A stretch of DNA of 40,684 nucleotides from a virus, in IMG/VR virus record IMGVR_UViG_3300036791_000469, positions 1 to 40,684 of that record. One strand, given 5' to 3'. Shown one piece after another: positions 14,544-32,026 of the stretch; the first letter of the stretch is position 1, and the number at the start of each line of letters is the position of its first letter. The notes under the pieces were generated by a model. The model was not told the origin of the DNA and did no database searches. It was given only the letters and a program-made list of their open reading frames with translations. Made by a program: the position numbers and the translations under genes.

Positions 14544-15001
14544 CCCCCCGTCACAATGGCAGTCACAGAAACAGAATTAGTGCGCGACCGCATCAGCAAC
14601 CGCACAAACTTGGCATTGACCAGCACCGCATCTAGGTGCGCGGTGTTGTTTGTGGCGTCAAATGTGGTGATGTTGCAGTTGGAACACGTCTGGTAATTCG
14701 TGTCGCTATCCTGCGCTGCAACCTGCACATCCACTTCGCTAACTCCTGGCGCACCACTGAATTTGATGTCTACGCTGAAGGGTGTGCCAGACTTCTGGCC
14801 AGTATTGCTCAGTGCCAATTGCTGGCTGGCTGCGGTGGTTCCATTGCCAGGCGTAGGTGTTTCGTTGGTCCAAACATTGATGGGCTGGCCAGTAACCGCA
14901 ACTGGCGCGGGTGTGGTGGCGTTGTATACCGGCATGGCCAGCGAATTGGTGGCCACCAGCAAAACGAACAAAACTGCTAAAAACTGTCGAAATCGAATCA
15001 T
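14540..15001 (-). CDS. Secreted beta-rich protein with signal peptide (153 aa)
   Basis: The ATG at 15001 follows AAAGGGGC at good spacing; an earlier TTG at 15022 lacks a site. Residues 1-22 form a Sec signal peptide ending NSLAMP. The mature part is beta-rich with a CSNC motif near residue 115 that may form a disulfide, and a C-terminal RSRTNSVSVTAIVTGG strand. Coupled to the next gene by ATGA. Family not recognised. Confidence 0.65.
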   Translation of the reverse strand: MIRFRQFLAVLFVLLVATNSLAMPVYNATTPAPVAVTGQPINVWTNETPTPGNGTTAASQQLALSNTGQKSGTPFSVDIKFSGAPGVSEVDVQVAAQDSDTNYQTCSNCNITTFDATNNTAHLDAVLVNAKFVRLLMRSRTNSVSVTAIVTGG

Positions 15002-15014
15002 TTTGCGCCCCTTT

Positions 15015-15905
15015 TTAAGCAATAAACTCGAAAATGACTAGGCCACCGCTACCATTGCCGCCAGCACGGTTTGCGCCGGATGATGCGCCACCACCACCTG
15101 AGCCAAAGCCTGTAGCTGTGTTGCCAGCAAAGCCGCCAGCGCCGGCGCCACCACCACCACCGCCATACAGTGAACTGGTGCCGCCACCACCCACGCCAGC
15201 GGTGGCCAGACCCGATCCACCACCAGCACCATTGACCGTGCCACCTGTTGCTGCTGCGGTTTGCGCTGCGCCGGCTGACGTTGCGGCCACCGAAAAACCG
15301 CCATTGCCGCCTGGCGCGCTGATGTTTACGCCTGTCCCCACCACAGTGGTGGCGTTGCCAGGATTGCCAGTGCCGGCACTCACGCCATTGCCGCCAGGGC
15401 CGATGCTGACGGTATAGGTGTCCCCTGGATTCAGCCCAGTAGCCCACAGAATGGCTACCGCGCCGCTGCCACCACCTGAGCCATTGTTTGTCGCTGAACT
15501 GCCGCCACCTGCACCACCACCACCCAAGGCTGTGATCTTCGCGCCTGTTACGGTGCTGGGTACTGTAAACGTGCCGCCCAAGGTGAATGCCTGGGCTTGT
15601 GGTGTGAAGGGCGGATTGCCTGTAAACGGTGCCACCACATCGTCAATGGTTTCAATGGTGCCGCCACCAGAGTCTTCAATGACGAAATCGTAGGCAGTAT
15701 TCTGGATCAGCCAAATCGATGCCACGCCACTGGCATCCAGAATGACCGGGTTGGAGTTGGGTGTAGCGCCAGTTGCGTCTGTGTATGTGACCAGCGGTGT
15801 GGATGTGCCGGCCTGGAATGTGAAGACTTGCCCACCATTCAGCGGCGCACCAATGGCGCTAAAGAATTGCTGGCGAACAAAGGGCGCAAGATTGACTACC
15901 GGCAT
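15015..15905 (-). CDS. Glycine-rich tail fibre / adhesin (296 aa)
   Basis: Residues 1-75 match the virion-attachment region of many podovirus fibres (FFSAIGAPLNGGQVFTFQAG followed by TSTPLVTYTDATGA and VILDASGVASIWL). From about residue 125 the protein is a long run of Gly-Gly-Gly and Gly-Ala/Ser-Gly motifs, like the polyglycine-helix adhesins of some myoviruses. It ends with a hydrophobic strand GLVIFEFIA. The ATG follows AGAGG. Likely the primary receptor-binding fibre. Confidence 0.78.
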   Translation of the reverse strand: MPVVNLAPFVRQQFFSAIGAPLNGGQVFTFQAGTSTPLVTYTDATGATPNSNPVILDASGVASIWLIQNTAYDFVIEDSGGGTIETIDDVVAPFTGNPPFTPQAQAFTLGGTFTVPSTVTGAKITALGGGGAGGGSSATNNGSGGGSGAVAILWATGLNPGDTYTVSIGPGGNGVSAGTGNPGNATTVVGTGVNISAPGGNGGFSVAATSAGAAQTAAATGGTVNGAGGGSGLATAGVGGGGTSSLYGGGGGGAGAGGFAGNTATGFGSGGGGASSGANRAGGNGSGGLVIFEFIA

Positions 15906-15939
15906 GGTGGTACCTCTGTACTATTGTTGCGTTCCAATG

Positions 15940-15963
15940 CTCCTGCAAAACTGTCTGCAGGAG
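15940..15963 (+). promoter_or_regulatory. Hairpin covering the ribosome site of the plus-strand 52-aa ORF
   Basis: CTCCTGCA and TGCAGGAG are a perfect 8-bp inverted repeat with an 8-nt loop. On plus-strand RNA the right arm contains the AGGAG ribosome site nine bases before the ATG at 15973, so folding would hide it. In the opposite direction it lies just upstream of the fibre gene. No T-run follows, so it is not a standard terminator. Confidence 0.5.
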
Positions 15964-15972
15964 AAACACACA

Positions 15973-16131
15973 ATGAGACTTACACCACAGCAAATGCAGC
16001 GTGATGCCGAAATCCGCGCCAGGCTATGGCAGGAATTTGTGGCCAATTACCAGCGCGTTATGATTGAAACGCCTGAAAAGTTTGAGCAATACGCGGCCGA
16101 TTGGCGCGAACGCTATCGCGCTGCTCACTGA
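15973..16131 (+). CDS. Small plus-strand protein (52 aa)
   Basis: ATG preceded by a consensus AGGAG nine bases upstream. The product is charged and helical (MRLTPQQMQRDAEIRARLWQ onward) with an aromatic-rich middle. It sits in the gap between the fibre gene and the ParB-like gene and overlaps the latter's stop by 7 bp. Tightly constrained between two genes and opposite to the late operon, it may be a small regulator. Function unknown. Confidence 0.5.
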   Translation: MRLTPQQMQRDAEIRARLWQEFVANYQRVMIETPEKFEQYAADWRERYRAAH

Positions 16132-16496
16132 GGCACCTTGTAAGGGTTTCCCAGGTCATGCACCACCATTGCCGGAAATGATTTCGCGCCATTGATCTTC
16201 AGGGCATCAAATCGGTGCGCGCCTTCCAAGATGTAAGGGCCATCCTTGTCTATGGCCACAATCAAAGGATTGATCTCGCCCGATTGCTTGATCTGCGCCG
16301 CCAGATTCTTGGTTCTGGCGTTTATCTCTGGTGGTGCCGGCAATTCGCTCATTGGAAATTCCCTGATGCCAGGCAAAGTCTCGTGATCATCCAAGCTGGC
16401 GCCGATAGAACTGGTATTCGGTACTGAATCCCTTACCTTCATGCCGCTTACTTTGGATCCTGATACAGCCGGATACTTAGAACCCAAATAATCCAT
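16125..16496 (-). CDS. ParB/sulfiredoxin-like domain protein (123 aa)
   Basis: The C-terminal 70 residues contain INPLIVAIDKDGPYILEGAH then RFDALKINGAKSFPAMVV, the core of the ParB N-terminal domain with a GAHR box. The ATG starts four bases after the ejection-protein stop with GGGGGAG upstream. Such domains are often carried at the C-terminus of phage ejection or internal virion proteins, so this could be a detached module of the 442-aa neighbour. A DNA-binding or NTP-binding role is possible. Confidence 0.72.
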   Translation of the reverse strand: MDYLGSKYPAVSGSKVSGMKVRDSVPNTSSIGASLDDHETLPGIREFPMSELPAPPEINARTKNLAAQIKQSGEINPLIVAIDKDGPYILEGAHRFDALKINGAKSFPAMVVHDLGNPYKVPQ

Positions 16497-16500
16497 TGGG

Positions 16501-17829
16501 TCAAAGACTCCCCCTGGCCAAAGTCATTTCCCGCGGTTCGGTAGTGGCGGCTTCAGCACCTTTGGCCAGCCGGCGCCGATCGTAGGTGAACCGTTCGGTG
16601 CCTGGGTATTCCTGCTTGAGCGAATTAACTACCTGGCTGCGGGTAACGCCATTTTCGGCCAGATCGCCACCCAGCCAGTGAACGTGCAGCGTGCCTTCGC
16701 CCTTTGGTTCCACCGTCACGCTGCCTACCCGATTGCCACCCACATTGATGGTGTGTTCTGTACCTAGCCCTGGGCCTAGATCTTCGCCTTCGCCCAATTT
16801 CATCCCCGGCCCGGCTATGTCGCTTAGTTTCACGCTGCTGCGCACATTGGAAATGCCTTCGCCTGGTGGCGCAAACAGGATCTGCCCACCTAGCTGCTGG
16901 ATCTGCTTGGCTGCGCCTGGCTTGCCGGCCAATGCCAGATCCTGCAATGTTCCACGTGGAACACTGGGCATGTAATTGGGGTTTTCGCCTTGGAATAGTG
17001 GCCGCGGTGTTGGTACTACCGTTACGCCGCTGGGCCGTTCGCCGGCCAGATCCGTCAATTTGACGCCTTGGCCTTGCGCCAGTTGCTCTGGTGTGGGTGA
17101 CGGTGGACCCTGCACAGGCGCCAGCGGCTGCACTGCATTGGCCCTGGCGTTTGACGCAGCAACACGCCGCTGCAGCGCTTCTTTTGCCAGTTGATCTTTT
17201 GTAGCTGCAACTTCGGCAGCTTCTTGCTTGGCTTCGGGTGACTGCAGAACGCCTTCTAGTTCGGCGGCATTCGTAGGGATTTTGCCGCCAGCAGCGCCAT
17301 ACATTCCACCAGCCAGGCCGCCTAATGTGCCGCCTAGTTCACCCTGCCCAACCGCACTGCCGGCTTGAGATCCAAGCCAGCGCCCAGCCGCGGCACCTAC
17401 CATGCCTTTAACGACTGGCGCAAAGGGTGCCAGGCTTCGCGCTGCAATGGCCTCAATAGGCACGCCAGCCATGCCCACCGTAGACAGCCCTGTCAAAGCC
17501 GGCCCAGATCCTTCCCGCACCGCTTCTTCATCACTTCCTGGCGTTCTGGGAAGTGGTGTAGTCAGCCCTTTCCATCCACGCTGCAACATGGTGGTTTCTT
17601 TTGGGCCTTCATCGAAGGGGATGGGCTTGGCGCCAGCCTTGATTACATCGTTGAATTGTTCGACTGGAACGTAGCCAACATCACCAGGCGTACCATCTGG
17701 ATTATTAGGTGCCTGAACCTTGCGCGCAACCTTCGCACCATTGCTCAATGCATCGTGCAACTGATCAAAAGGCACTTGGCCAGGCGTGCCATCAGGAGCA
17801 AGTAAAAGCACCATCGGTTTAGTGCTCAT
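16501..17829 (-). CDS. Ejection / internal virion protein C (442 aa)
   Basis: The N-terminus has two copies of a short unit (APDGTPGQVPFDQLHDAL; NPDGTPGDVGYVPVEQFNDV) seen in podovirus DNA-injection proteins. Residues about 115-180 are Gly/Ala-rich and hydrophobic, suited to membrane insertion. The C-terminus (NVGGNRVGSVTVEPKG, HVHWLGGDLAENGVTRSQVV) is a small folded domain. Two KLS-type peptides occur at residues 256-263 (VKLTDLAG) and 333-340 (VKLSDIAG). Coupled to the gene before it by ATGA. Probably released into the host envelope during DNA entry. Confidence 0.7.
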   Translation of the reverse strand: MSTKPMVLLLAPDGTPGQVPFDQLHDALSNGAKVARKVQAPNNPDGTPGDVGYVPVEQFNDVIKAGAKPIPFDEGPKETTMLQRGWKGLTTPLPRTPGSDEEAVREGSGPALTGLSTVGMAGVPIEAIAARSLAPFAPVVKGMVGAAAGRWLGSQAGSAVGQGELGGTLGGLAGGMYGAAGGKIPTNAAELEGVLQSPEAKQEAAEVAATKDQLAKEALQRRVAASNARANAVQPLAPVQGPPSPTPEQLAQGQGVKLTDLAGERPSGVTVVPTPRPLFQGENPNYMPSVPRGTLQDLALAGKPGAAKQIQQLGGQILFAPPGEGISNVRSSVKLSDIAGPGMKLGEGEDLGPGLGTEHTINVGGNRVGSVTVEPKGEGTLHVHWLGGDLAENGVTRSQVVNSLKQEYPGTERFTYDRRRLAKGAEAATTEPREMTLARGSL

Positions 17830-19385
17830 GGCGTTTTAGGTAAGGCAGTGCCACCATATTTGGCAAAGAATGGATGGTTTGTGCCCGTTGCAGGCGCCGG
17901 CGCTGCAGCAGCACCGCCCGAAGTCTCAGCAGTGGCTTTCGTGTCGCCAATGCGGTTCTTGATCTGCGCAATTTGATCCGCATAAGACTGATGGCGATTG
18001 GCCATATCCTGTTTGAGCACTTTAGCCACAGCCAATGTCTGGCCATAGGTGGCGCTGGCTGGGTTAAAGGCTTCAATTTCATGCCGCGCGCTGTCCGAAA
18101 GCTGGCCGGTCAGACCTGGGCTAGAAGTAACTTTGGCAATTTCATTGACGGCCACCTGCCGCGCAGCATTCAATGCGGCCTGATCCTGGCTACCTAGTTC
18201 TGCCGCCCCTGCGCGCAGTGGCCGATTCAGCAAAGGAATGCCGGTATCAATGGCTTTCTGCGCCAGATTGGTGAACAGGTCCAGATTTTTGTTGGCAGTG
18301 TTTTCAAACGCAGTAACCGCATCCAGATTCTTTTGGATGCCAGTCAACGATGCCACATTGGCTTTGTATTCTCCGCTGCCAGCAGCCAGTGATTCACCCG
18401 CGTGCAGTTCTGCGGCGCGGTTCATGATCTGTCTGTTTTGAATGATGCCGGCTGCGCCGCGGCCTGCAGGTGGCAGTTTTCCGGTATTCCAGTAATTTTC
18501 AGCCTGCTGATCCAGCGCAGCCTTGGTCAGTTGCAAGCCGGCCGCATTCGCTTGGTCGCGCTGCGCCTTGGTGGCAGTCGCATTTTCTGTGGATTGCATC
18601 AGTTTATCAATGCGATCGTAATCCTTTTGCGTGGCATTGGCTGGCAGCGTGAACTGTGGTGGCAGCGGCTTATTCGGATTCAGCACTTGATACCGTGAGG
18701 TTAGCCCAGCATTCATTTGGGCAACATTCGGCAGCGGCAATTCACCTTCAGGCGGCTTGCCTTGCGCGCGAATCGTCGCCACTCTTTCTTCTTCAGCAGC
18801 TTTCTGCTGGCCAGGTGACTGTGAAACGGCGTTGTCTACAATCTGCTTGAAGGCTGCTGGGTTGGTATCAATTTGCTGCCGCAGTGCATTGATCTGTGGG
18901 CTGTTCGGCAGCGTATCCAGCAAAGTATGGGAAACGTTCGGGTCATACTTGGCGTTTTGGATCGCCTTGGCAGCATATCCCAGGGTATCTTTGTTGTACG
19001 TATCAATCTTTTGTTGCGATTCCTGCAAATCCGCCTTGGATTTCTGAAATTTGGTGACGTTATCCAGAATCCCAGGGATAGCATCACCATGCCCTGAAGA
19101 TGCAAGATTCTTGGTCAATTCGTCAGTATCGATTTCCGGTTGACCCTGCGCATTGGGCTTCACTGCAGCCCTGTAAGCGGCGCGCGTGGCCTGCTGGGTA
19201 GCCAACGCATCTTGGCGCGCAGCGATTTCCTGCTGGCCAGATTGCACATTCTGCTGTAGCGCTTGCTGGCGCAGTGGCGCTTCTTGCTGCATCTGCTTCA
19301 GTTGCGCCACCTTGGAGTATTGATCCAGCAGATTGGCTTGTGGTGTTGGGGGATTGATGGCTAGTGCCGCAAGTGGAATGCCCAT
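17826..19385 (-). CDS. Ejection / internal virion protein B (519 aa)
   Basis: Strong TAGGAGC ribosome site. The protein is almost entirely helical, Gln/Ala/Asn-rich with coiled-coil stretches (KQMQQEAPLRQQALQQNVQS), no membrane span and a disordered Ala/Pro tail. This composition and position, between gp10-like and fibre genes, match P22 gp7/gp20/gp16-class ejection proteins, which diverge too fast for motif recognition. Confidence 0.68.
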   Translation of the reverse strand: MGIPLAALAINPPTPQANLLDQYSKVAQLKQMQQEAPLRQQALQQNVQSGQQEIAARQDALATQQATRAAYRAAVKPNAQGQPEIDTDELTKNLASSGHGDAIPGILDNVTKFQKSKADLQESQQKIDTYNKDTLGYAAKAIQNAKYDPNVSHTLLDTLPNSPQINALRQQIDTNPAAFKQIVDNAVSQSPGQQKAAEEERVATIRAQGKPPEGELPLPNVAQMNAGLTSRYQVLNPNKPLPPQFTLPANATQKDYDRIDKLMQSTENATATKAQRDQANAAGLQLTKAALDQQAENYWNTGKLPPAGRGAAGIIQNRQIMNRAAELHAGESLAAGSGEYKANVASLTGIQKNLDAVTAFENTANKNLDLFTNLAQKAIDTGIPLLNRPLRAGAAELGSQDQAALNAARQVAVNEIAKVTSSPGLTGQLSDSARHEIEAFNPASATYGQTLAVAKVLKQDMANRHQSYADQIAQIKNRIGDTKATAETSGGAAAAPAPATGTNHPFFAKYGGTALPKTP

Positions 19386-19394
19386 GCTTAGCTC

Positions 19395-20570
19395 CTATCC
19401 ATAATACGTGCCACCAGTTGGGTCATACGGCGGAATATTGTAAGGGTTGTTTTGCTGCTGTTGTGGCGCCAATTGGCTAAGCAAAAGCCCTTGCTGCACG
19501 CTGCCTACACCCGCGCCAATCCCTGAATTGATTGCATTGGCCTGGCCTACATACCCGCTGGCTGTTGCGGCGCCGGCTTGCTGCGCACTTTGGCCGATCT
19601 GCTGCCCGGCTGTCTGCGAAATGTTGCCAATGTTGGCCGCGGCCTGCTGCCCTGCAGCATTTAGTTGGCCAGCCGCAGTTTGCCCTGTGCCAGCCAGGGA
19701 AGCCAGCCGGTTGAATTGGTTCGTCTGGTTGTTCTGAAACTGGTTGTAGGCTGTTTGGTAGTTCGTTAGCGCATTATTATAGGTTTGCTGGTAGTTCGAT
19801 GCTGCCAGCCTTTGACCATAATTTTCTAGCGCTTCAGCGGTGTTGCCAGACAGCAAGCCACCGCGCGCCGCGGCACTGTTCTGCAGCGCTGCTTCCCCTT
19901 GTTGCAGTTGGAATTGATACCCAGGCGTGGCCGCAGCTTGGGCTGCGGTGGGTGCTGTGAATTGCCCGGTCCAGGGCTGCAACAATGAGCCATAGCCTAC
20001 GCCACCCGCGGCGCCTGGTGCTTGCGCGGTTGTGCTGGCTGGCTGGCCAGAGATCGGCTGCGCCGCGGTACCTCTGACTGGGTTTAAGGTACCTCCCACG
20101 CCAAGCCCTGAAGTGGGTGCCGGCGCGCCACCGCGGGTGGCCGCAATCGTAGATGTTGGCCGCGCAGGAGCACCGACCAGCCCCGGCGCCGCTGTAATGC
20201 CTGGCGCTGCTGGCCGGCCGCTGGCGGGAACTGTGGTGCTGGCTGGCGCACCGGAATAGGGCGAAGCTACTGCACCCGGTGGGCCTTGCGGCGTGATGCC
20301 CAAGCCATAATCCAGCGCACCTAATGCCCCAGCACCGCTTTGCAGCCAGGGCGCCAGGTTCTGCTGGCCAGTCTGGTATTGCTGTTCCTGAAAGTTTAAG
20401 GCGTTCTGGGCTTCGGTGGCTTGCAGGTTGGCAGCATAGTTGGCAGCGCCAGCTTGTGTGGAAGCTGCCTGGCCGGCTGCGTGCGCACCAATCGCAGAAC
20501 TGGCTACGCCACCTGCAATGCCGGCGCCGGCAATGCCTAAACCGATCGCTGTGCTGGTTGCTACACTCAT
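19395..20570 (-). CDS. Ejection / DNA-transfer protein A (391 aa)
   Basis: Residues 8-30 are a Gly/Ala-rich hydrophobic N-terminus (GLGIAGAGIAGGVASSAIGA). A proline/Ala/Thr linker follows at 95-190. The segment TPGYQFQLQQGEAALQNSAA then ARGGLLSGNTAEALENYGQ is the hallmark of podovirus DNA-transfer proteins, followed by a Gln/Asn-rich helical repeat region. ATGA overlap with the oxygenase gene. Likely forms part of the DNA-entry conduit. Confidence 0.78.
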   Translation of the reverse strand: MSVATSTAIGLGIAGAGIAGGVASSAIGAHAAGQAASTQAGAANYAANLQATEAQNALNFQEQQYQTGQQNLAPWLQSGAGALGALDYGLGITPQGPPGAVASPYSGAPASTTVPASGRPAAPGITAAPGLVGAPARPTSTIAATRGGAPAPTSGLGVGGTLNPVRGTAAQPISGQPASTTAQAPGAAGGVGYGSLLQPWTGQFTAPTAAQAAATPGYQFQLQQGEAALQNSAAARGGLLSGNTAEALENYGQRLAASNYQQTYNNALTNYQTAYNQFQNNQTNQFNRLASLAGTGQTAAGQLNAAGQQAAANIGNISQTAGQQIGQSAQQAGAATASGYVGQANAINSGIGAGVGSVQQGLLLSQLAPQQQQNNPYNIPPYDPTGGTYYG

Positions 20571-21196: not shown

Positions 21197-21614
21197 ACTT
21201 TAGCCGCTGGTACAGTCTTCCTACCCGTTCGTTGGGCGCAATCATCTGCATTTGCTTGGCGCCGCAGCGCCGGGCAATGTCTTCAGCCGCCTTCAGCAAT
21301 GCCTTGCCGGCGCCGCGGTGTTCTGGTTCCATCCACCAAAAGATTTCCCCACCAATCATTTCCCCGGTCAGAAAGTGAGGATAGACATAAAAGCCGATCA
21401 TTCCCACCGTTTCACCATCAATTTCACTGAGCAACAGCCAGCCAGCCGGAATCAACTTGCGTGCCAGCACTTCCATCGGCCCATCAGCCACTCGCAGAAT
21501 GGTGCGATATTCGCTCGATTCATTGAACCGATGGCCCATTTCCAGAATCCGCGGGATATCGTTAACCGTTGCCGCCCGAATTGTCAGAACGCGCTCAGCG
21601 CAGTACGTGCCCAT
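21159..21614 (-). CDS. GNAT-family N-acetyltransferase (151 aa)
   Basis: From the ATG at 21614 the protein starts MGTYCAERVLTIRAATVNDI, the usual first strand of a GNAT. The acetyl-CoA loop is EHRGAGKALLKAAEDIA (about residues 99-115). The end (ERVGRLYQRLKYGYV) is the usual motif B/C region. An earlier start at 21767 would read through the neighbouring 87-aa gene and is rejected. The ribosome site is weak, and it overlaps both neighbours, suggesting translation coupling. Confidence 0.8.
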   Translation of the reverse strand: MGTYCAERVLTIRAATVNDIPRILEMGHRFNESSEYRTILRVADGPMEVLARKLIPAGWLLLSEIDGETVGMIGFYVYPHFLTGEMIGGEIFWWMEPEHRGAGKALLKAAEDIARRCGAKQMQMIAPNERVGRLYQRLKYGYVESTYQKAI

Positions 21615-26229: not shown

Positions 26230-27450
26230 TTAGCTGCAGATCCGCACAGCAAGCTGTGGGTAAATCGTTGCCCAGCCGCCTAGCACATCGCAGCGAAGTG
26301 GCAAACGGTCAGTGTTAATGTCATACGCGCGGATAATTCGGCAGGATAGCCCGATTTCCGGCACGCCCATACGTTCACGCATGTCCACACCTTCCGGCAA
26401 AGGAAGGGGAACGTTAGCGAAAGTGAATGCGTCAGGATGGAAGCCCAGACCGCGGGTAGTGTTGGTGCCGCCAACGCCTTGAACCGTTACCGCGCCGCCG
26501 TTGGTAGGCGAAGCCGAAGCGTTCTGGAATGGGCCGCTGGTGATGATGCCGTTGCCATCTGGGCCGGCAATCTGCAATGTAGCTAAGCCGCCACCATCTG
26601 ACGAAGCATTGGCAATCAGCACCCATTGTGCAAGATCGCCGGTAGATGTGCGCGACTGCGGATTGACTGCAAAGCAGCCGGCAAACGTTACGATGTCGCC
26701 CAAATTCAGCCGCAAAGCTGCCGCGGCTGTCCAGCCTTGCGTAGTGATGCTGGATCCTGTCTGGTTGGCAGCACTGACTGTTGGTGTTCCCCCCTGTGGT
26801 CCCACCACTTGTGGCTGGGTGTTCTGGTCCATATACCAGTCAAAACCCAGCGTGTCTTCGCTCATCATGCCTTTATCGTACTGATCGCCAATCTTGCGTT
26901 GCGGATTGAACAAACCAGCCAAAGCATTCACGATGGTGGCGTTTTGCTTGGTTCCGATAACCATTTTGCGATCGGCTGTAGGCACTGCCTGATCGGACAG
27001 TTTCTGGCCAGCTTGTAAATACGTCAGCGCGGAATTGGGTACCGTTCCAGGCGTACCCACTTCATTGAACACGTTGACATACTGTGCTAAACCATCTACG
27101 TCAATCTGGTTGCCCATGCTGTACATGGCTGGGCGGATGAATCGCTTACTGAATTCATCGATGCTCAGCTTGAGATCCGCGGTGGTGACTTGGAAAGCGC
27201 GCTGATACTGCGTGGTAAGTGTCAGCGGCACGCTGGTTTCCGTGAGATCCTGGTAGATGATGCCTTGCCCTGCAGCCGGCACAAATCGTACAGGCTTGCG
27301 AAGGTTTAGCACCGTGCCAATCTTGGCGCCAGCTTCGCCAAATTCATCGCTATACTCACGGTTGACGTGCTTGGTAAAAACCGTTTCATTAAACAGGACC
27401 ATCAAAGTTTCTTTGGTGATCATGCCAATGGTTAGAAGCGTGTTGCTCAG
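26230..27450 (-). CDS. Major capsid protein, P22 coat (gp5) family (406 aa)
   Basis: Features: MITKETLMVLFNETVFTKHV then NREYSDEF, IGTVLNLRKPVRFVPAAGQG, a P-domain-like start, YMDQNTQ and the C-terminal YDINTDRLPLRCDVLGGWAT. Relatives usually have a short leader ending LLTxxMI, and the frame here reads SNTLLTIG before the ATG at 27423. A CTG at 27450 lies seven bases after AGGG, while the ATG has no ribosome site, so CTG is proposed as the start. If ATG is used the protein is 397 aa. Confidence 0.85.
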   Translation of the reverse strand: MSNTLLTIGMITKETLMVLFNETVFTKHVNREYSDEFGEAGAKIGTVLNLRKPVRFVPAAGQGIIYQDLTETSVPLTLTTQYQRAFQVTTADLKLSIDEFSKRFIRPAMYSMGNQIDVDGLAQYVNVFNEVGTPGTVPNSALTYLQAGQKLSDQAVPTADRKMVIGTKQNATIVNALAGLFNPQRKIGDQYDKGMMSEDTLGFDWYMDQNTQPQVVGPQGGTPTVSAANQTGSSITTQGWTAAAALRLNLGDIVTFAGCFAVNPQSRTSTGDLAQWVLIANASSDGGGLATLQIAGPDGNGIITSGPFQNASASPTNGGAVTVQGVGGTNTTRGLGFHPDAFTFANVPLPLPEGVDMRERMGVPEIGLSCRIIRAYDINTDRLPLRCDVLGGWATIYPQLAVRICS

Positions 27451-27473: not shown

Positions 27474-28406
27474 TCAGCGCGATCGGCCTGCACGGCGTGC
27501 CTTCATGTAATCCATAAAAGACAATTCGTCCAAAGTCTTCGGTGACGATTTTGTATTCGCTGCAACCGGGCTGATCGGTTCCGGTGCGCGCGATTCCGGT
27601 TTATCCTTGCGGGGTTTTGCTTCTGATCCTTTGCTGAGCAAGCGTGACAAGTGGCCTAGCGCCCCAATCTGGTCAATTTCTTCAAGCCCTTGGATTTCTT
27701 CGGCAATGTCAGGATTGGTGGCCAGGTGGTACATCACTTCTGGCCCATTTTCCAGCCGCTGGATATAAACCGCGGTAGCTGGCTGGACAATTACTCCTGA
27801 ATCCTGCAAAGCATCGTCAAAATCTTCGTGGCGTTCCCTAGCTTCTGAAACGCGCTGCTTGTGGGCTTCTACCACTTGTCTGGCAGATTCCTGGCGTTCG
27901 GTTTCGATTCGCTTCTGCTCTGCTTGGGCTAACTCTTGGCGCACACGCCAGCCCACCATCGCATCGATGTACGCCGCTTCGTTGTTTCCGAATTGCTCAC
28001 GAGTTGGCTGGGCATCTTTGGCTGGTTCAGCTTGCGTTTGTTGCTGGGCCGGCTGCTGCGCTGTGCTGCCGCGGCGTGCCTGCTCCAATTCGCTTTCAAG
28101 TTGCCGGGTGCGAGCAGTCAGCTTGTCAATCTTGCGCTGAAATCCGCCACCCTTGCTTTTGCTTTTCCCGCTGGATGCGTCCGTTTCCGATTCGGTCGCT
28201 GGTTTTGCGTCTGCTGGCTGCTCAGTCGCTTCGGTGTGTTCTTCCTGTTCCTGGGCTGCCGGTTCTTTGGCGCCCTCAGCCGGAATCGCTGTGGTAGTGG
28301 TTTTCCCTTCCCTACGTGCCTTCACATAATCTGCAAAAGGCACTTCGGGTGAATCAATGGACACTTCGGCTGCTGGTTGTGGTGCTACTGCTTCCGGCTC
28401 AGGCAT
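27474..28406 (-). CDS. Scaffolding protein (310 aa)
   Basis: Strong CAGGAG site. Acidic, helical, low-hydrophobicity protein with a long coiled-coil core (FQRKIDKLTARTRQLESELE) lying between portal and coat genes, as in P22. A short motif is repeated near both ends: VPFADYVKARREGK (residues about 23-36) and LSFMDYMKARRAGR (last 16 residues). The basic C-terminal copy is where P22 scaffold binds coat. It should be absent from mature virions. Confidence 0.8.
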   Translation of the reverse strand: MPEPEAVAPQPAAEVSIDSPEVPFADYVKARREGKTTTTAIPAEGAKEPAAQEQEEHTEATEQPADAKPATESETDASSGKSKSKGGGFQRKIDKLTARTRQLESELEQARRGSTAQQPAQQQTQAEPAKDAQPTREQFGNNEAAYIDAMVGWRVRQELAQAEQKRIETERQESARQVVEAHKQRVSEARERHEDFDDALQDSGVIVQPATAVYIQRLENGPEVMYHLATNPDIAEEIQGLEEIDQIGALGHLSRLLSKGSEAKPRKDKPESRAPEPISPVAANTKSSPKTLDELSFMDYMKARRAGRSR

Positions 28407-28454: not shown

Positions 28455-30566
28455 CTATTGCCCTGCCGCGGCTGGCTCTGGCTGCTCTGCCTGCTGTGCC
28501 GCGTTTGTAGCTGCCATGCCTACTTCGTGCGCTTGATCAGCTTGCTGGTTTTGCTGCGCGTTTTGCTGCGCCACTGCAGCCATATCCTTTTCGTGATCCT
28601 TCTGGATTTGGTCCAAGGCTATATCGTGCGCAGCATCGTGCAGCATTCCGTACTGTTGCAGTTCCCGGTCAGCAATGCCTTCTTGCGTGGCCTTCGAAGC
28701 ATTGATTTGTGCCACCGCAATCTTGGTTACTTCCTGCATCTTGGTGACAGCCAGCTTCGATATTTCCTGCATCTGCGCAATGTCTTTCTTGCCTTGCTGT
28801 TCCACTTGCTTGGTCTGGATAATCTGGTGCGCTTGGTTCAAAAGCCCTGTGGCTTGCTGCAGTTGTGTGCCTAGCTGCGTTACTTGCTGCTGCAGTTGCT
28901 GCCCTTGCTTTTGTGGATCATCAGCAGCCAACACTTGCTGTGGCAGCATGGCGTGCAAGCGCTTACTAATTTCCTTGGCGCCGGGGATGTCCATGTTGCT
29001 GACTACAATGTCACCAATTAGCGGCAGCACGCTAGGATCCGACTTAATCAGATCCATTTGCACTGCGACTGCTTCCTGGCGCTTGGTCTGATAACTCGGC
29101 CCAACTTCAATCGTAATATCGTAGGTACCCTGGCTAAGATCGTGGATCTTGCTGATTTGCTGTTCTTCCGCCAGTGCTTCGGCATCTTCCTTTTGATCTT
29201 CCCCGTTATACGTTACTACATGGGTAATGGTCTTGTCTGGATGGATGATACGCTGGATGTCTGGCGTATCGTAGTAAACCGGAATCCAGTCAATGAGAAT
29301 GTGGCCGCATTCCCGCATCGCGCGGCTAAGGTTATCGGTATAGTTGAATGTGGCTACATCACCCTGTTGCTGCAGCCGGGTAATGGCGCGGCCGGATTCA
29401 TCACCGGTGCGTTGGCCCAACGATGGGTTATACAGCCCAATGCTGGCTTTGAGATCTAATCCTGCCTGCGTGATCATAGCCGCCAATGCTTGAATGGGTG
29501 GCTCTGCTTGGTCGCGCTGCGGTGCTGGCAGTGGCGTGCCTTCCAGTGACTTGGGCTTGTACTGCAAAACGGAATAATTCTTTTTATTGGCGTTCTTCCA
29601 CTCTGTTTCGTGGCCTTCAATCTGGCCTTCTGCAGCCACAAACGGCGATTTTGGCGCGAGTGCAATGGTTTCAGTCGCTGCTGATACCATGTAGTTATAT
29701 TGCCGCTGCGGCCCTTTGGCATTGCGAATCAAGCCGGCTAAATAGCGCTTGCCATCCACGTCCAGATCGTCACCCAGTACCGAAATCACTGGCACACGCT
29801 TGCCAGGTATCGGCTTGGGACCATCCAAAACTTCTACCGCATTGATCTTGGACCAAAACACTTTCTTTTTTGGCGCGCCTTTTTTGCGTGGCGTTTCTTC
29901 GATATAGAAATACTCTGCGATGCGCACAGATTCTTTGCTTAGCCAGGATTCTGGCGCATTGCCTTTGGAATAAAACGTTTCTAGCGATCCGCAAAGATCC
30001 GATTTCGGAAACTGGTTCTTATATTCGGTGGGGGTCAAGTCTTCCACGATGAAGCCCCAACCCTTTTTAGGCCCAGGATCCATGTAAACCGTGAACGTAT
30101 TGCGAATGGGCCGAATGCAGATGTTTTGCTTCCCGCTATCATCGTCGCGGTACTCTGCCAGCAGCCGAAAGTGGCCGCGGCCGCAGCGCACCATCGATTC
30201 AAAGGACATATCGTAGGCCAGTTCAGCATCGCTTTGCACTTCGATGTGCCTAACAATGCCTTGCCAGACCTCCGCACCTTCCACATCGGCGCCATCCCCA
30301 ACCGGATTCACGATGATCCCCGGCCGCTGTTGCCGTTGATTGTTGCAGACCAGCTTCACAGATTGCTGTGTTTGATCCATCGTCAGCATTGGCCGGCCAT
30401 CCAGCGCACGCTGCGATCGAATCAGTTCTGGCCACTGATCGCCTACCGAAAACTTCAGATCCTCCAGACACTCCACCCGCGGTTCAGCTTCTGCTTCATC
30501 GGCTTGCTTCCACCGATCCATTGCCAACTGTAGAAACGCCTTGTTTTTATTCGGATCGGTAGGCAA
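28455..30566 (-). CDS. P22-type portal protein (703 aa)
   Basis: The N-terminus (AMDRWKQADEAEAEPRVECL, LKFSVGDQWP, RPMLTMDQTQQSVKLVCNNQ) is characteristic of P22-like portals. The centre has a crown/stem-like region with IGLYNPSLGQRTGDESGRAI, and the C-terminal 170 residues form a Gln-rich helical barrel. The start appears to be TTG at 30566, after the previous stop. Forms the dodecameric DNA gateway. Confidence 0.87.
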   Translation of the reverse strand: MPTDPNKNKAFLQLAMDRWKQADEAEAEPRVECLEDLKFSVGDQWPELIRSQRALDGRPMLTMDQTQQSVKLVCNNQRQQRPGIIVNPVGDGADVEGAEVWQGIVRHIEVQSDAELAYDMSFESMVRCGRGHFRLLAEYRDDDSGKQNICIRPIRNTFTVYMDPGPKKGWGFIVEDLTPTEYKNQFPKSDLCGSLETFYSKGNAPESWLSKESVRIAEYFYIEETPRKKGAPKKKVFWSKINAVEVLDGPKPIPGKRVPVISVLGDDLDVDGKRYLAGLIRNAKGPQRQYNYMVSAATETIALAPKSPFVAAEGQIEGHETEWKNANKKNYSVLQYKPKSLEGTPLPAPQRDQAEPPIQALAAMITQAGLDLKASIGLYNPSLGQRTGDESGRAITRLQQQGDVATFNYTDNLSRAMRECGHILIDWIPVYYDTPDIQRIIHPDKTITHVVTYNGEDQKEDAEALAEEQQISKIHDLSQGTYDITIEVGPSYQTKRQEAVAVQMDLIKSDPSVLPLIGDIVVSNMDIPGAKEISKRLHAMLPQQVLAADDPQKQGQQLQQQVTQLGTQLQQATGLLNQAHQIIQTKQVEQQGKKDIAQMQEISKLAVTKMQEVTKIAVAQINASKATQEGIADRELQQYGMLHDAAHDIALDQIQKDHEKDMAAVAQQNAQQNQQADQAHEVGMAATNAAQQAEQPEPAAAGQ

Positions 30567-30568
30567 GT

Positions 30569-30931
30569 CTAGTCAGGGATGATGCCAAAGATGTCTTGGA
30601 ACTGAACAATATGCAATTCCGGTGCTGCACCAGCCGGCAAAGATTCTTGCTGATGATCGCCAGCCAGATCATTCCACTGCGAGTTAAAATAAACTTGCTG
30701 GCCTACTTTGACCCACGGCCCTTCACACCAGCCATCTAGCCATTCCCAGCGTTTGCGGCTTTGGAAATACCACCATTCGCCAGGATGCCATTTGCCAGGC
30801 CCAACAGCCACAACAATGCCGCGGATTGCGCGCGGCTTGGCTACATCAGGGATGTGGATGCTGCCAATTTTTTCCACATCCCCAACGCGCTGAATTATCA
30901 CCCGGTCATTTCTAGGGTGTAGGCTGAGCAT
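30569..30931 (-). CDS. GroES-like co-chaperonin (120 aa)
   Basis: From ATG 30931 the sequence LHPRNDRVIIQRVGDVEKIG then SIHIPDVAKPRAIRGIVVAVGPG follows the GroES fold, including the mobile-loop region and the GxVVAVGxG strand. VKVGQQVYFNSQWND and ELHIVQFQDIFGII match its last strands. About 25 extra residues with many Trp (GEWWYFQSRKRWEWLDGW) sit in the roof-loop position. Phage GroES homologues (T4 gp31) help the host chaperonin fold coat protein, which suits its place in the head operon. Confidence 0.78.
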   Translation of the reverse strand: MLSLHPRNDRVIIQRVGDVEKIGSIHIPDVAKPRAIRGIVVAVGPGKWHPGEWWYFQSRKRWEWLDGWCEGPWVKVGQQVYFNSQWNDLAGDHQQESLPAGAAPELHIVQFQDIFGIIPD

Positions 30932-31154
30932 CGAACTTATCCGGTGCAGATTCCGGTACAGGTGCAGGCTCAGGCTCAGGCGCCGGCTCATCCAAGCCTT
31001 TGCCAGTAACCGTCACCGCGTATTCTTCGCCCTTCTCACATTTTGTCTGGCTGCTGAACGTTACGGTGTGGCCGCTTACTACGTCGCGCAGCGTGATGTG
31101 ATGCAGCCCGGTGGCGTCTTGATTGTCTTCCGTGCATTGCGTCTTAAATTCCAT
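30912..31154 (-). CDS. Hypothetical head-region protein with Pro-Glu tail (80 aa)
   Basis: CAGGAGAG ribosome site. Residues 1-55 appear as a small beta domain (HHITLRDVVSGHTVTFSS; EEYAVTVTG). The C-terminus is a PEPEPAPVPE linker. It overlaps the GroES-like gene by 20 nt. No family recognised. Confidence 0.62.
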   Translation of the reverse strand: MEFKTQCTEDNQDATGLHHITLRDVVSGHTVTFSSQTKCEKGEEYAVTVTGKGLDEPAPEPEPAPVPESAPDKFDAQPTP

Positions 31155-31187: not shown

Positions 31188-31427
31188 TCAGGTAAGGCTG
31201 GACAGTTTCACACCACTTTTTTTGCCGATGCTGGGAAATTTACTGCGTACTTTGCTCTTGATGTTGGCATACGTAGCCGGCGCCAGGTTGCCTTTCTTCA
31301 CCGATCGCGCGCCTAGCTGAATGGCTTTGCGGCCGTGCTCGATGTCTTCGATGGGATAGGATCGGCCAGGGCCGGCAAATGACTTAGCTGGCAGTTCTTT
31401 GCGTGCTTTGGTGCTCAGTTTTGCCAT
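31188..31427 (-). CDS. Small phage protein with LPAKSFAGPGRSYPI motif (79 aa)
   Basis: The N-terminal ARKELPAKSFAGPGRSYPIE then DIEHGRKAIQL is a widespread small phage motif (DUF6582-like) of unknown role. The C-terminus is SGVKLSSLT, one of three similar endings in adjacent genes. ATG with GAGG nine bases upstream. Basic overall. Confidence 0.68.
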   Translation of the reverse strand: MAKLSTKARKELPAKSFAGPGRSYPIEDIEHGRKAIQLGARSVKKGNLAPATYANIKSKVRSKFPSIGKKSGVKLSSLT

Positions 31428-31551
31428 TTTGTTGTGCCTCTATAATTTCCCAGCGGCGTTTCAGCGCCACCCACTCCACCATCGTCAATTGATCCAGGCT
31501 ATGCAGGCCGGCAATGCGCTTGTAGCCTTCAATTAACTGCGCGCGGGTCAT
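31384..31551 (-). CDS. Overlapping microprotein (55 aa)
   Basis: The ATG overlaps the stop of the 62-aa gene as ATGA and the stop lies 44 nt inside the next gene. The product (MTRAQLIEGYKRIAGLHSLD onward) is helical and plausible as a folded small protein, with MVEWVALKRRWEII in the middle. Support is coupling and composition only. Confidence 0.5.
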   Translation of the reverse strand: MTRAQLIEGYKRIAGLHSLDQLTMVEWVALKRRWEIIEAQQNGKTEHQSTQRTAS

Positions 31552-31736
31552 TTTGCGAGATCCGACAGCTTCACGCCACCGCGGCGCACTTTAGCATTGT
31601 GTTTGGCCTGCATCGCGCGGCCTTTGGCTGTTTCTTTGTTGCCCCGCATCGCGCCCAGCTTGTTCATCACCATGTACGGAACTTTGCTGTTGGCGCCATA
31701 TTCGGCTTTGAGTTTTTCTTCCAGAAATTTAGGCAT
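31548..31736 (-). CDS. Small basic phage protein with KLSDL tail (62 aa)
   Basis: MPKFLEEKLKAEYGANSKVP then YMVMNKLGAMRGNKET matches a small protein found beside head genes in podoviruses, function unknown. It ends GGVKLSDLAK. It is highly basic and could bind DNA. Confidence 0.68.
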   Translation of the reverse strand: MPKFLEEKLKAEYGANSKVPYMVMNKLGAMRGNKETAKGRAMQAKHNAKVRRGGVKLSDLAK

Positions 31737-31828
31737 GTTTCTTCCTTCGCCGCCGCGGCCGTTTCATGGTTAGCTTTGGATTCTAGTTCAGCCAGGAATT
31801 TGGAGAGATCAAACCAGCAGTTTCCCAT
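31667..31828 (-). CDS. Possible overlapping microprotein (53 aa)
   Basis: The ATG follows the stop of the Cys-rich gene directly (TAGATG) and the frame runs 70 nt into the 62-aa gene. The first 30 residues fill what would otherwise be a 92-nt gap. No ribosome site is evident, so expression would depend on reinitiation. Confidence 0.35.
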   Translation of the reverse strand: MGNCWFDLSKFLAELESKANHETAAAAKEETCLNFWKKNSKPNMAPTAKFRTW

Positions 31829-32026
31829 CTATCTTGCCAAGCCGCTTAGCTGGATGCCAGCCTTCGCGGAAAACTTGCGGCACCAATCCTGCGGCAGGAT
31901 CACACCTTTGACGATCTCACAGCGTTTGATGACTTGGAAATGCCGGCACTGGCTGCAGTGCTTCGGCCCTTTGGCGGGATGTTCATAGCCAACTTCAGAC
32001 TTTTCATACTGCTTTGGGGGATTCAC
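31829..32026 (-). CDS. Four-cysteine, HiPIP-like small protein (65 aa)
   Basis: Cysteines at 24, 27, 36 and 49 (HCSQCRHF, KRCEIVKG, DWCRKF) follow the C-x2-C-xn-C-xn-WC pattern of high-potential iron-sulfur-like small proteins that also occur in podovirus head operons. It could bind a 4Fe-4S cluster or zinc. The GTG start comes directly after the previous stop. It ends AGIQLSGLAR. Confidence 0.62.
   Translation of the reverse strand: MNPPKQYEKSEVGYEHPAKGPKHCSQCRHFQVIKRCEIVKGVILPQDWCRKFSAKAGIQLSGLAR

Follow-up and report, generated by a model that had tools for sequence, protein, structure and literature searches.

Three genes for small proteins lie close together on the minus strand of the window, as we call the whole analysed stretch of DNA, a virus record of 40,684 bases. 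P1 (31188..31427; 79 aa, pI 10.7) belongs to the phrog_16160 family by its PHROG profile match. P2 (31548..31736; 62 aa, pI 10.3) has neither a Pfam nor a PHROG match. P3 (31829..32026; 65 aa, pI 9.6) starts with GTG and features four cysteines (CSQC..C..WC). The proteins end with similar peptides, SGVKLSSLT in P1 (31191-31217), GGVKLSDLAK in P2 (31551-31580) and AGIQLSGLAR in P3 (31832-31861). Two further copies, GVKLTDLAG (17041-17067) and SVKLSDIAG (16810-16836), are situated inside a 442-aa ejection-region protein (16501..17829, minus strand). Each of these five peptides, described in the initial annotation, is found at its place, all on the minus strand, and they are the sole matches to the pattern [VIL][KQR]L[ST]x[LIVM] among the six-frame open reading frames of at least 30 aa in the window.

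The surrounding genes encode a P22-like podophage head and an ejection cassette, as follows from the presence of the portal, coat, scaffold and DNA-ejection proteins. The major coat protein of the P22 type (26230..27423, PF11651), the head scaffolding protein (27474..28406, phrog_8865), which is a candidate for the tag receptor or a part of it, and the P22-type portal protein (28455..30566, PF16510) are all encoded on the minus strand. A terminase is also encoded in the window (PHROGs), and the genes of the tagged small proteins sit in the terminase-portal late block. The gene adjoining that of the portal, on the minus strand too, encodes a GroES-like protein (30569-30991, PF00166); a GroES-like gene is found beside the portal gene also in many related contigs and in the cultured phages PBR31 and DSL-LC05. 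The ejection cassette, again on the minus strand, consists of a 391-aa DNA-ejection protein (19395..20570, phrog_598), a 519-aa protein (17826..19385), whose role is assigned by position only, and the 442-aa protein, the product of the third gene, whose role is assigned by the gene order after the phrog_598 protein. The first two have no tag. Directly after the cassette there is a gene of a ParB-N-like protein (16125-16496, PF02195), and a radical-SAM-like protein with a CPVGCHFC motif is encoded at 500-1384, both genes being on the minus strand and both Pfam matches under the cut-off. The portal, used as a query against bacterial genomes in a search for the host, yielded no match.

The tighter pattern [VI][KQ]L[ST]x[LI] is matched five times in the window (12,218 aa) and three times in the other contigs (502,150 aa). 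When each called protein is shuffled, the mean is 0.16 matches, and five were not reached in any of 5,000 shuffles; at the C-termini, the three observed matches compare with a mean of 0.003. When the 442-aa protein was shuffled 200,000 times, two copies arose once. All these figures are flattering, as the window pattern was composed after the peptides were known. Hence the pattern-free tests on related phages carry more weight.

The small carriers are indeed unrelated, as had been proposed: no similarity between their bodies is detectable, and their Pfam and PHROG results and sets of homologues differ. The match of P1 to phrog_16160 (E 2.5e-16) covers residues 1-66, so that the tag is outside it. 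In the AlphaFold models of P1 and P2, the tag is a low-confidence tail past a confident small helical body. Out of 119 relatives of P2 detected in IMG/VR, 80 were kept; their first 46-50 residues are conserved, while the tail is variable, as is its spacing. The P2 fold search gave no match, nor did a search for P2 among cultured phages. For P1, the fold search found no significant match in PDB and a few viral proteins, among them one annotated as a prohead protease; the hit, with probability 1.00 and TM 0.67, is to one domain of this 650-aa protein in the viral structure library. This similarity of a predicted fold may be a further hint of a place inside proheads.

A close relative, IMGVR_UViG_3300027853_000008 (L246/G063), has a portal 74% identical to that of the window and a similar local gene order; its contig is overlapped by IMGVR_UViG_3300005591_000009 (L243/L264). 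Here the P1 protein ends with KFPGIKLSSLAR, and a DUF3008-like protein (PF11450, E 2.3e-5) ends with KHGGVKLSELAR. The KLSxLAR peptide is kept on these two proteins, and P2 and P3 are absent from the examined part of the contig. The scaffold of this phage, like that of the window, has a near-identical motif close to both ends (FADFVKARREG and FMDYKKAREAG; in the window, FADYVKARREG and FMDYMKARRAG). Tails of the K[LI][SG]xL type occur in further P22-like contigs, where their carriers are P1, P2 and a protein featuring the motif YKLxxGE. The tails are MKIGRLARG and IKIGSLARAK in contig G094, VKLSSLARAR and PLKNLARAN in G074, and KLSSLRGN and SKLSDLA in L056.

In the relatives generally, the tail varies from phage to phage, yet in a subset of contigs it is common to P2 and its unrelated small neighbours. 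Thus, the tails are RRKKKMKGMAL, LRRKKKMKGMGL and RRRKMKGFALP in G030; KKVRLTRLMGR and KKVRMTKLMGR in G001; TLGANLMKGGK, SLGSNLMKGHA and MQKNLMGGGQ in G032; SALYGD (twice) and SLLYGD in G050; SHPGMRYK and SHPGMKYR in L034; LRALGGRQR and LRALGGKMC in G043; and VKLSSLRRA and VKLSSLRYAG in L012. The set of contigs found by P1 adds new tails, for example, KGYGGPPFQR and KGYGGPPFQT. The initial annotation had named the lack of the motif in relatives as evidence against itself; the relatives in fact have either the motif or a version of their own.

We relied on two permutation tests, one anchored at P2 and the other at P1, neither of which uses the pattern derived from the window. In the former (62 non-redundant contigs, pair score of at least 28, neighbours permuted among contigs), nine contigs feature a tail shared with the own neighbour, with 0.35 expected (p<=5e-5). 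In the latter, tails are shared in eight of the 52 contigs, with 0.36 expected (p<=5e-5). The two sets overlap by two contigs. The relatives featuring the tags come from virus contigs of metagenomes, many of which are fragments, with genes called by a simple custom script. More than 80% of the P1 or P2 contigs have no neighbour sharing the tail. Four contigs (L042, G006, G007, L024) with a tag-like P2 tail, for which no partner was found, are weak or negative cases, and the tails of L005 and L021 are counted likewise. An early screen of all gene pairs had shown a modest within-genome excess (36 vs 17 at the score of at least 32), and this number included true paralogues; therefore only the anchored tests are used here. 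The tails are short and the window pattern was selected after the fact, and both would make a chance likeness easier; however, given two pattern-free tests, each at p<=5e-5, and a control set of five cultured P22-like phages in which no such sharing is seen, mere chance is scarcely credible.

A different set of tails is seen in G035 (IMGVR_UViG_3300005529_000056). Six unrelated proteins, including a ParB/methyltransferase-like one, have acidic ends of the IDEIG type: VEEIG, VDELG, IDEIG, IEEIG, LDEIG and LETIG (genes at 14930-16306, 19285-19476, 21224-21430, 26829-27125, 27474-28247 and 31320-31841). This may be a second, separate system of shared tails on replication-type proteins, perhaps resembling the SSB tail.

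Most genes sharing a tail are neighbours, as would be expected if the tails were duplications or gene conversions of 3'-ends with no function of the peptide. In two contigs (L021:2054-3000 and L005:6125-6539) P2 or two other small proteins carry as their tail the helix that forms the C-terminus of P1 (LSxxAAxxIRxKAxK), which is consistent with such copying. On the other hand, tags are also observed 14 to 25 kb away, and the same codon is used at 45 of the 124 identical residues of shared tails, with 45.7 expected from random choice of codons. Since this agreement is at the chance level, the tails are neither recent duplications of 3'-ends nor a signal in the nucleic acid, and functionless copying is a very improbable explanation. 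An old copy kept by selection is possible, and that leads back to a recruitment motif. An origin from Shine-Dalgarno sequences or DNA repeats was rejected on the same codon evidence; besides, the window tails have no strong ribosome-binding stretch. The simplest reading of the codon data is that selection acts on the peptide. Overall, the shared tail is very likely a selected, co-varying interaction motif.

The initial annotation had extended the motif to an ejection protein. This holds in two phages only. One is the window; the other is G010, where the protein at the same position of the cassette (441 aa, 40343-41668) ends with ISIADLMKR, resembling the end of the P2 protein of the same phage, NISDLMKRK, although the two are about 25 kb apart in the record. 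The 442-aa and 441-aa proteins are equivalent by position, with no sequence homology detected between them, and neither IMG/VR nor 30 related records yielded a homologue of the 442-aa protein. In three other phages with shared tags (G061, G074, G094) the ejection-region proteins have no tag; thus a tagged ejection protein is not a general rule. We also considered that the tag might mimic the ejection protein of 391 aa, the candidate segments being FNRLASLAG (window) and GGTLKALGNYD (G043). This possibility was rejected, as such segments are typical of the family in phages with other tags.

The location of the carriers was addressed via crAss001 gp45, denoted 'Cargo protein 1' (C1) in PDB (7qog, PF25725). 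P1 is homologous to a part of gp45, with the PHROG match at residues 282-313 (E 7e-4). Peptides 275-300 and 307-320 of gp45 were obtained from virions by mass spectrometry (Bayfield et al. 2023, PMC10172136), hence the P1-type domain is carried in particles. In contig G014, a second small protein, adjoining P2, is homologous to another module of gp45. The gp45 protein combines its modules in a single chain of 842 aa, whereas in the window they are separate and joined solely by the common tag. The fusion argument is indirect and comes from sequence homology, and as it concerns one module, it covers P1 and not P2 or P3; still, it is the best available evidence pointing to the virion. The sequence A[FY]GGxL comes three times after modules of gp45 (L170:5988-8516), at residues 207, 330 and 425, the last copy being at the beginning of the published portal-bound domain 425-552 (PMC10172136). 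A candidate fusion of the 391-aa ejection family into gp45 was dismissed (hhalign probability 0.5%).

The tag-like character proposed in the initial annotation is borne out: the peptide is shared, maintained at the peptide level, carried by other proteins in the close relative and located outside the confident folds. What we infer from these data is the encapsidation, the step of loading and the partner that binds the tag. We suggest that the shared peptide is probably a lineage-specific short linear motif recruiting cargo to the procapsid core. Each phage lineage would have its own tag sequence, a flexible C-terminal tail on several unrelated small, mostly basic proteins, and in the window phage the tag is present additionally at two positions inside the ejection-region protein. 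The partner would be encoded by the phage and diverge together with the tag, the most likely one being the core formed by the scaffold and ejection proteins near the portal. It would bind the tag during formation of the procapsid, so that the cargo is docked before closure of the shell, and the enclosed small proteins might later be injected with the DNA.

Alternatively, the tag could dock small proteins on an intracellular phage complex, such as a hub of late assembly or host take-over, with no packaging. The tag would be real and selected under either reading, the presence of P1, P2 and P3 in virions is something we infer, and an assembly gene, that of the GroES-like protein, adjoins the tagged genes. 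However, tag copies in the ejection-region proteins of the window and G010, the P1 module within a virion cargo protein and the location of the genes in the terminase-portal late block argue for packaging, and we consider docking inside the cell rather unlikely.

The nature of the partner is constrained by the variability of the tag. With such large differences in the tag from one phage to another, the receptor is likely to be encoded by the phage itself and to change along with the tag, while conserved partners from the host, such as GroEL or Clp proteases, fit badly. The case for GroEL is that the tag could copy the mobile loop of GroES (GGIxLPDxAK-like), the phage GroES being encoded next door; GGVKLSDLAK does resemble GSIHIPDVAK, the loop of the GroES-like protein of the window. 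But the tags of other phages (SALYGD, SHPGMRYK, NLMKGGK, LRALGGRQR, KGYGGPPFQR) are unlike such loops and have no hydrophobic GroEL-binding core, which a mimic of the loop should have in all tags. Moreover, GroEL is strongly conserved, and as the partner it would hold the tag constant. Hence GroEL docking is quite improbable. It is extremely unlikely that the tail is a degron, recognized at the C-terminus by a protease of the host, e.g. ClpXP: while some tails end with -DLA or resemble the C-motifs of the RRKK type, the specificity of host proteases is conserved and the tails SALYGD, SHPGMRYK and HRFA do not fit it, and the internal copies in the 442-aa protein are not C-terminal.

A broader version of the recruitment motif is more tentative, and we hold it to be possible rather than probable. 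Many P22-like soil phages might use such a peptide as a barcode, each lineage with its own sequence and a co-diverging internal receptor, so that the product of any small gene gaining the peptide at its end would become virion cargo and reach the host. If the recruitment reading is true, small proteins that are carried or injected could be recognized from the genome sequence alone, by C-terminal tails repeated within a genome. It would suggest how phages exchange injected proteins without redesign of the capsid, the cargo genes being freely swapped, and would provide a testable function for common families with no assigned function: phrog_16160, the P2 family and the DUF3008-like proteins. It would also extend the idea of the T4 capsid targeting sequence (CTS) to phages of the P22 type.

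Targeting peptides of encapsulins, to which the tag had been compared in the initial annotation, are short C-terminal tails on the cargo of an HK97-type shell. The tag is likewise C-terminal on its candidate cargo, a likeness of position only. The likeness may be one of function and does not extend to the systems, since the window is that of a phage with a portal, a scaffold, a terminase and a shell of P22-type coat protein, and has several small unrelated cargo candidates. Thus this is not an encapsulin system. The CTS of T4 seems to be a nearer analogue. It is a peptide of about 10 residues, common to the different small basic internal proteins IPI-IPIII, which it targets to the core of the head (PMC9026906); the internal proteins vary between related phages, and the CTS, located at the N-terminus, is cleaved off by the gp21 protease (PMC9026906). 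In both cases a short peptide is common to unrelated small proteins of one phage, the internal location being established for T4 and presumed for the window. However, the tag is C-terminal in P1, P2 and P3 and internal in the 442-aa protein, its sequence changes between lineages, and loading, proven for T4, is here a prediction. No prohead protease was recognized by Pfam and PHROGs among the head genes scanned, which were a part of all genes. Given its position, the tag is not a CTS of the T4 type. The ejection proteins gp7, gp16 and gp20 of P22 come from a cassette of the same type as that of the window, with a P22 portal, coat and DNA-ejection protein. In the passages considered on P22 (PMC12005531), the scaffold is implicated in the incorporation of gp16 and gp20, and no common recruitment peptide of the ejection proteins is described. 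By analogy with these systems, the tag probably functions like a capsid targeting sequence, but one that is lineage-specific and C-terminal.
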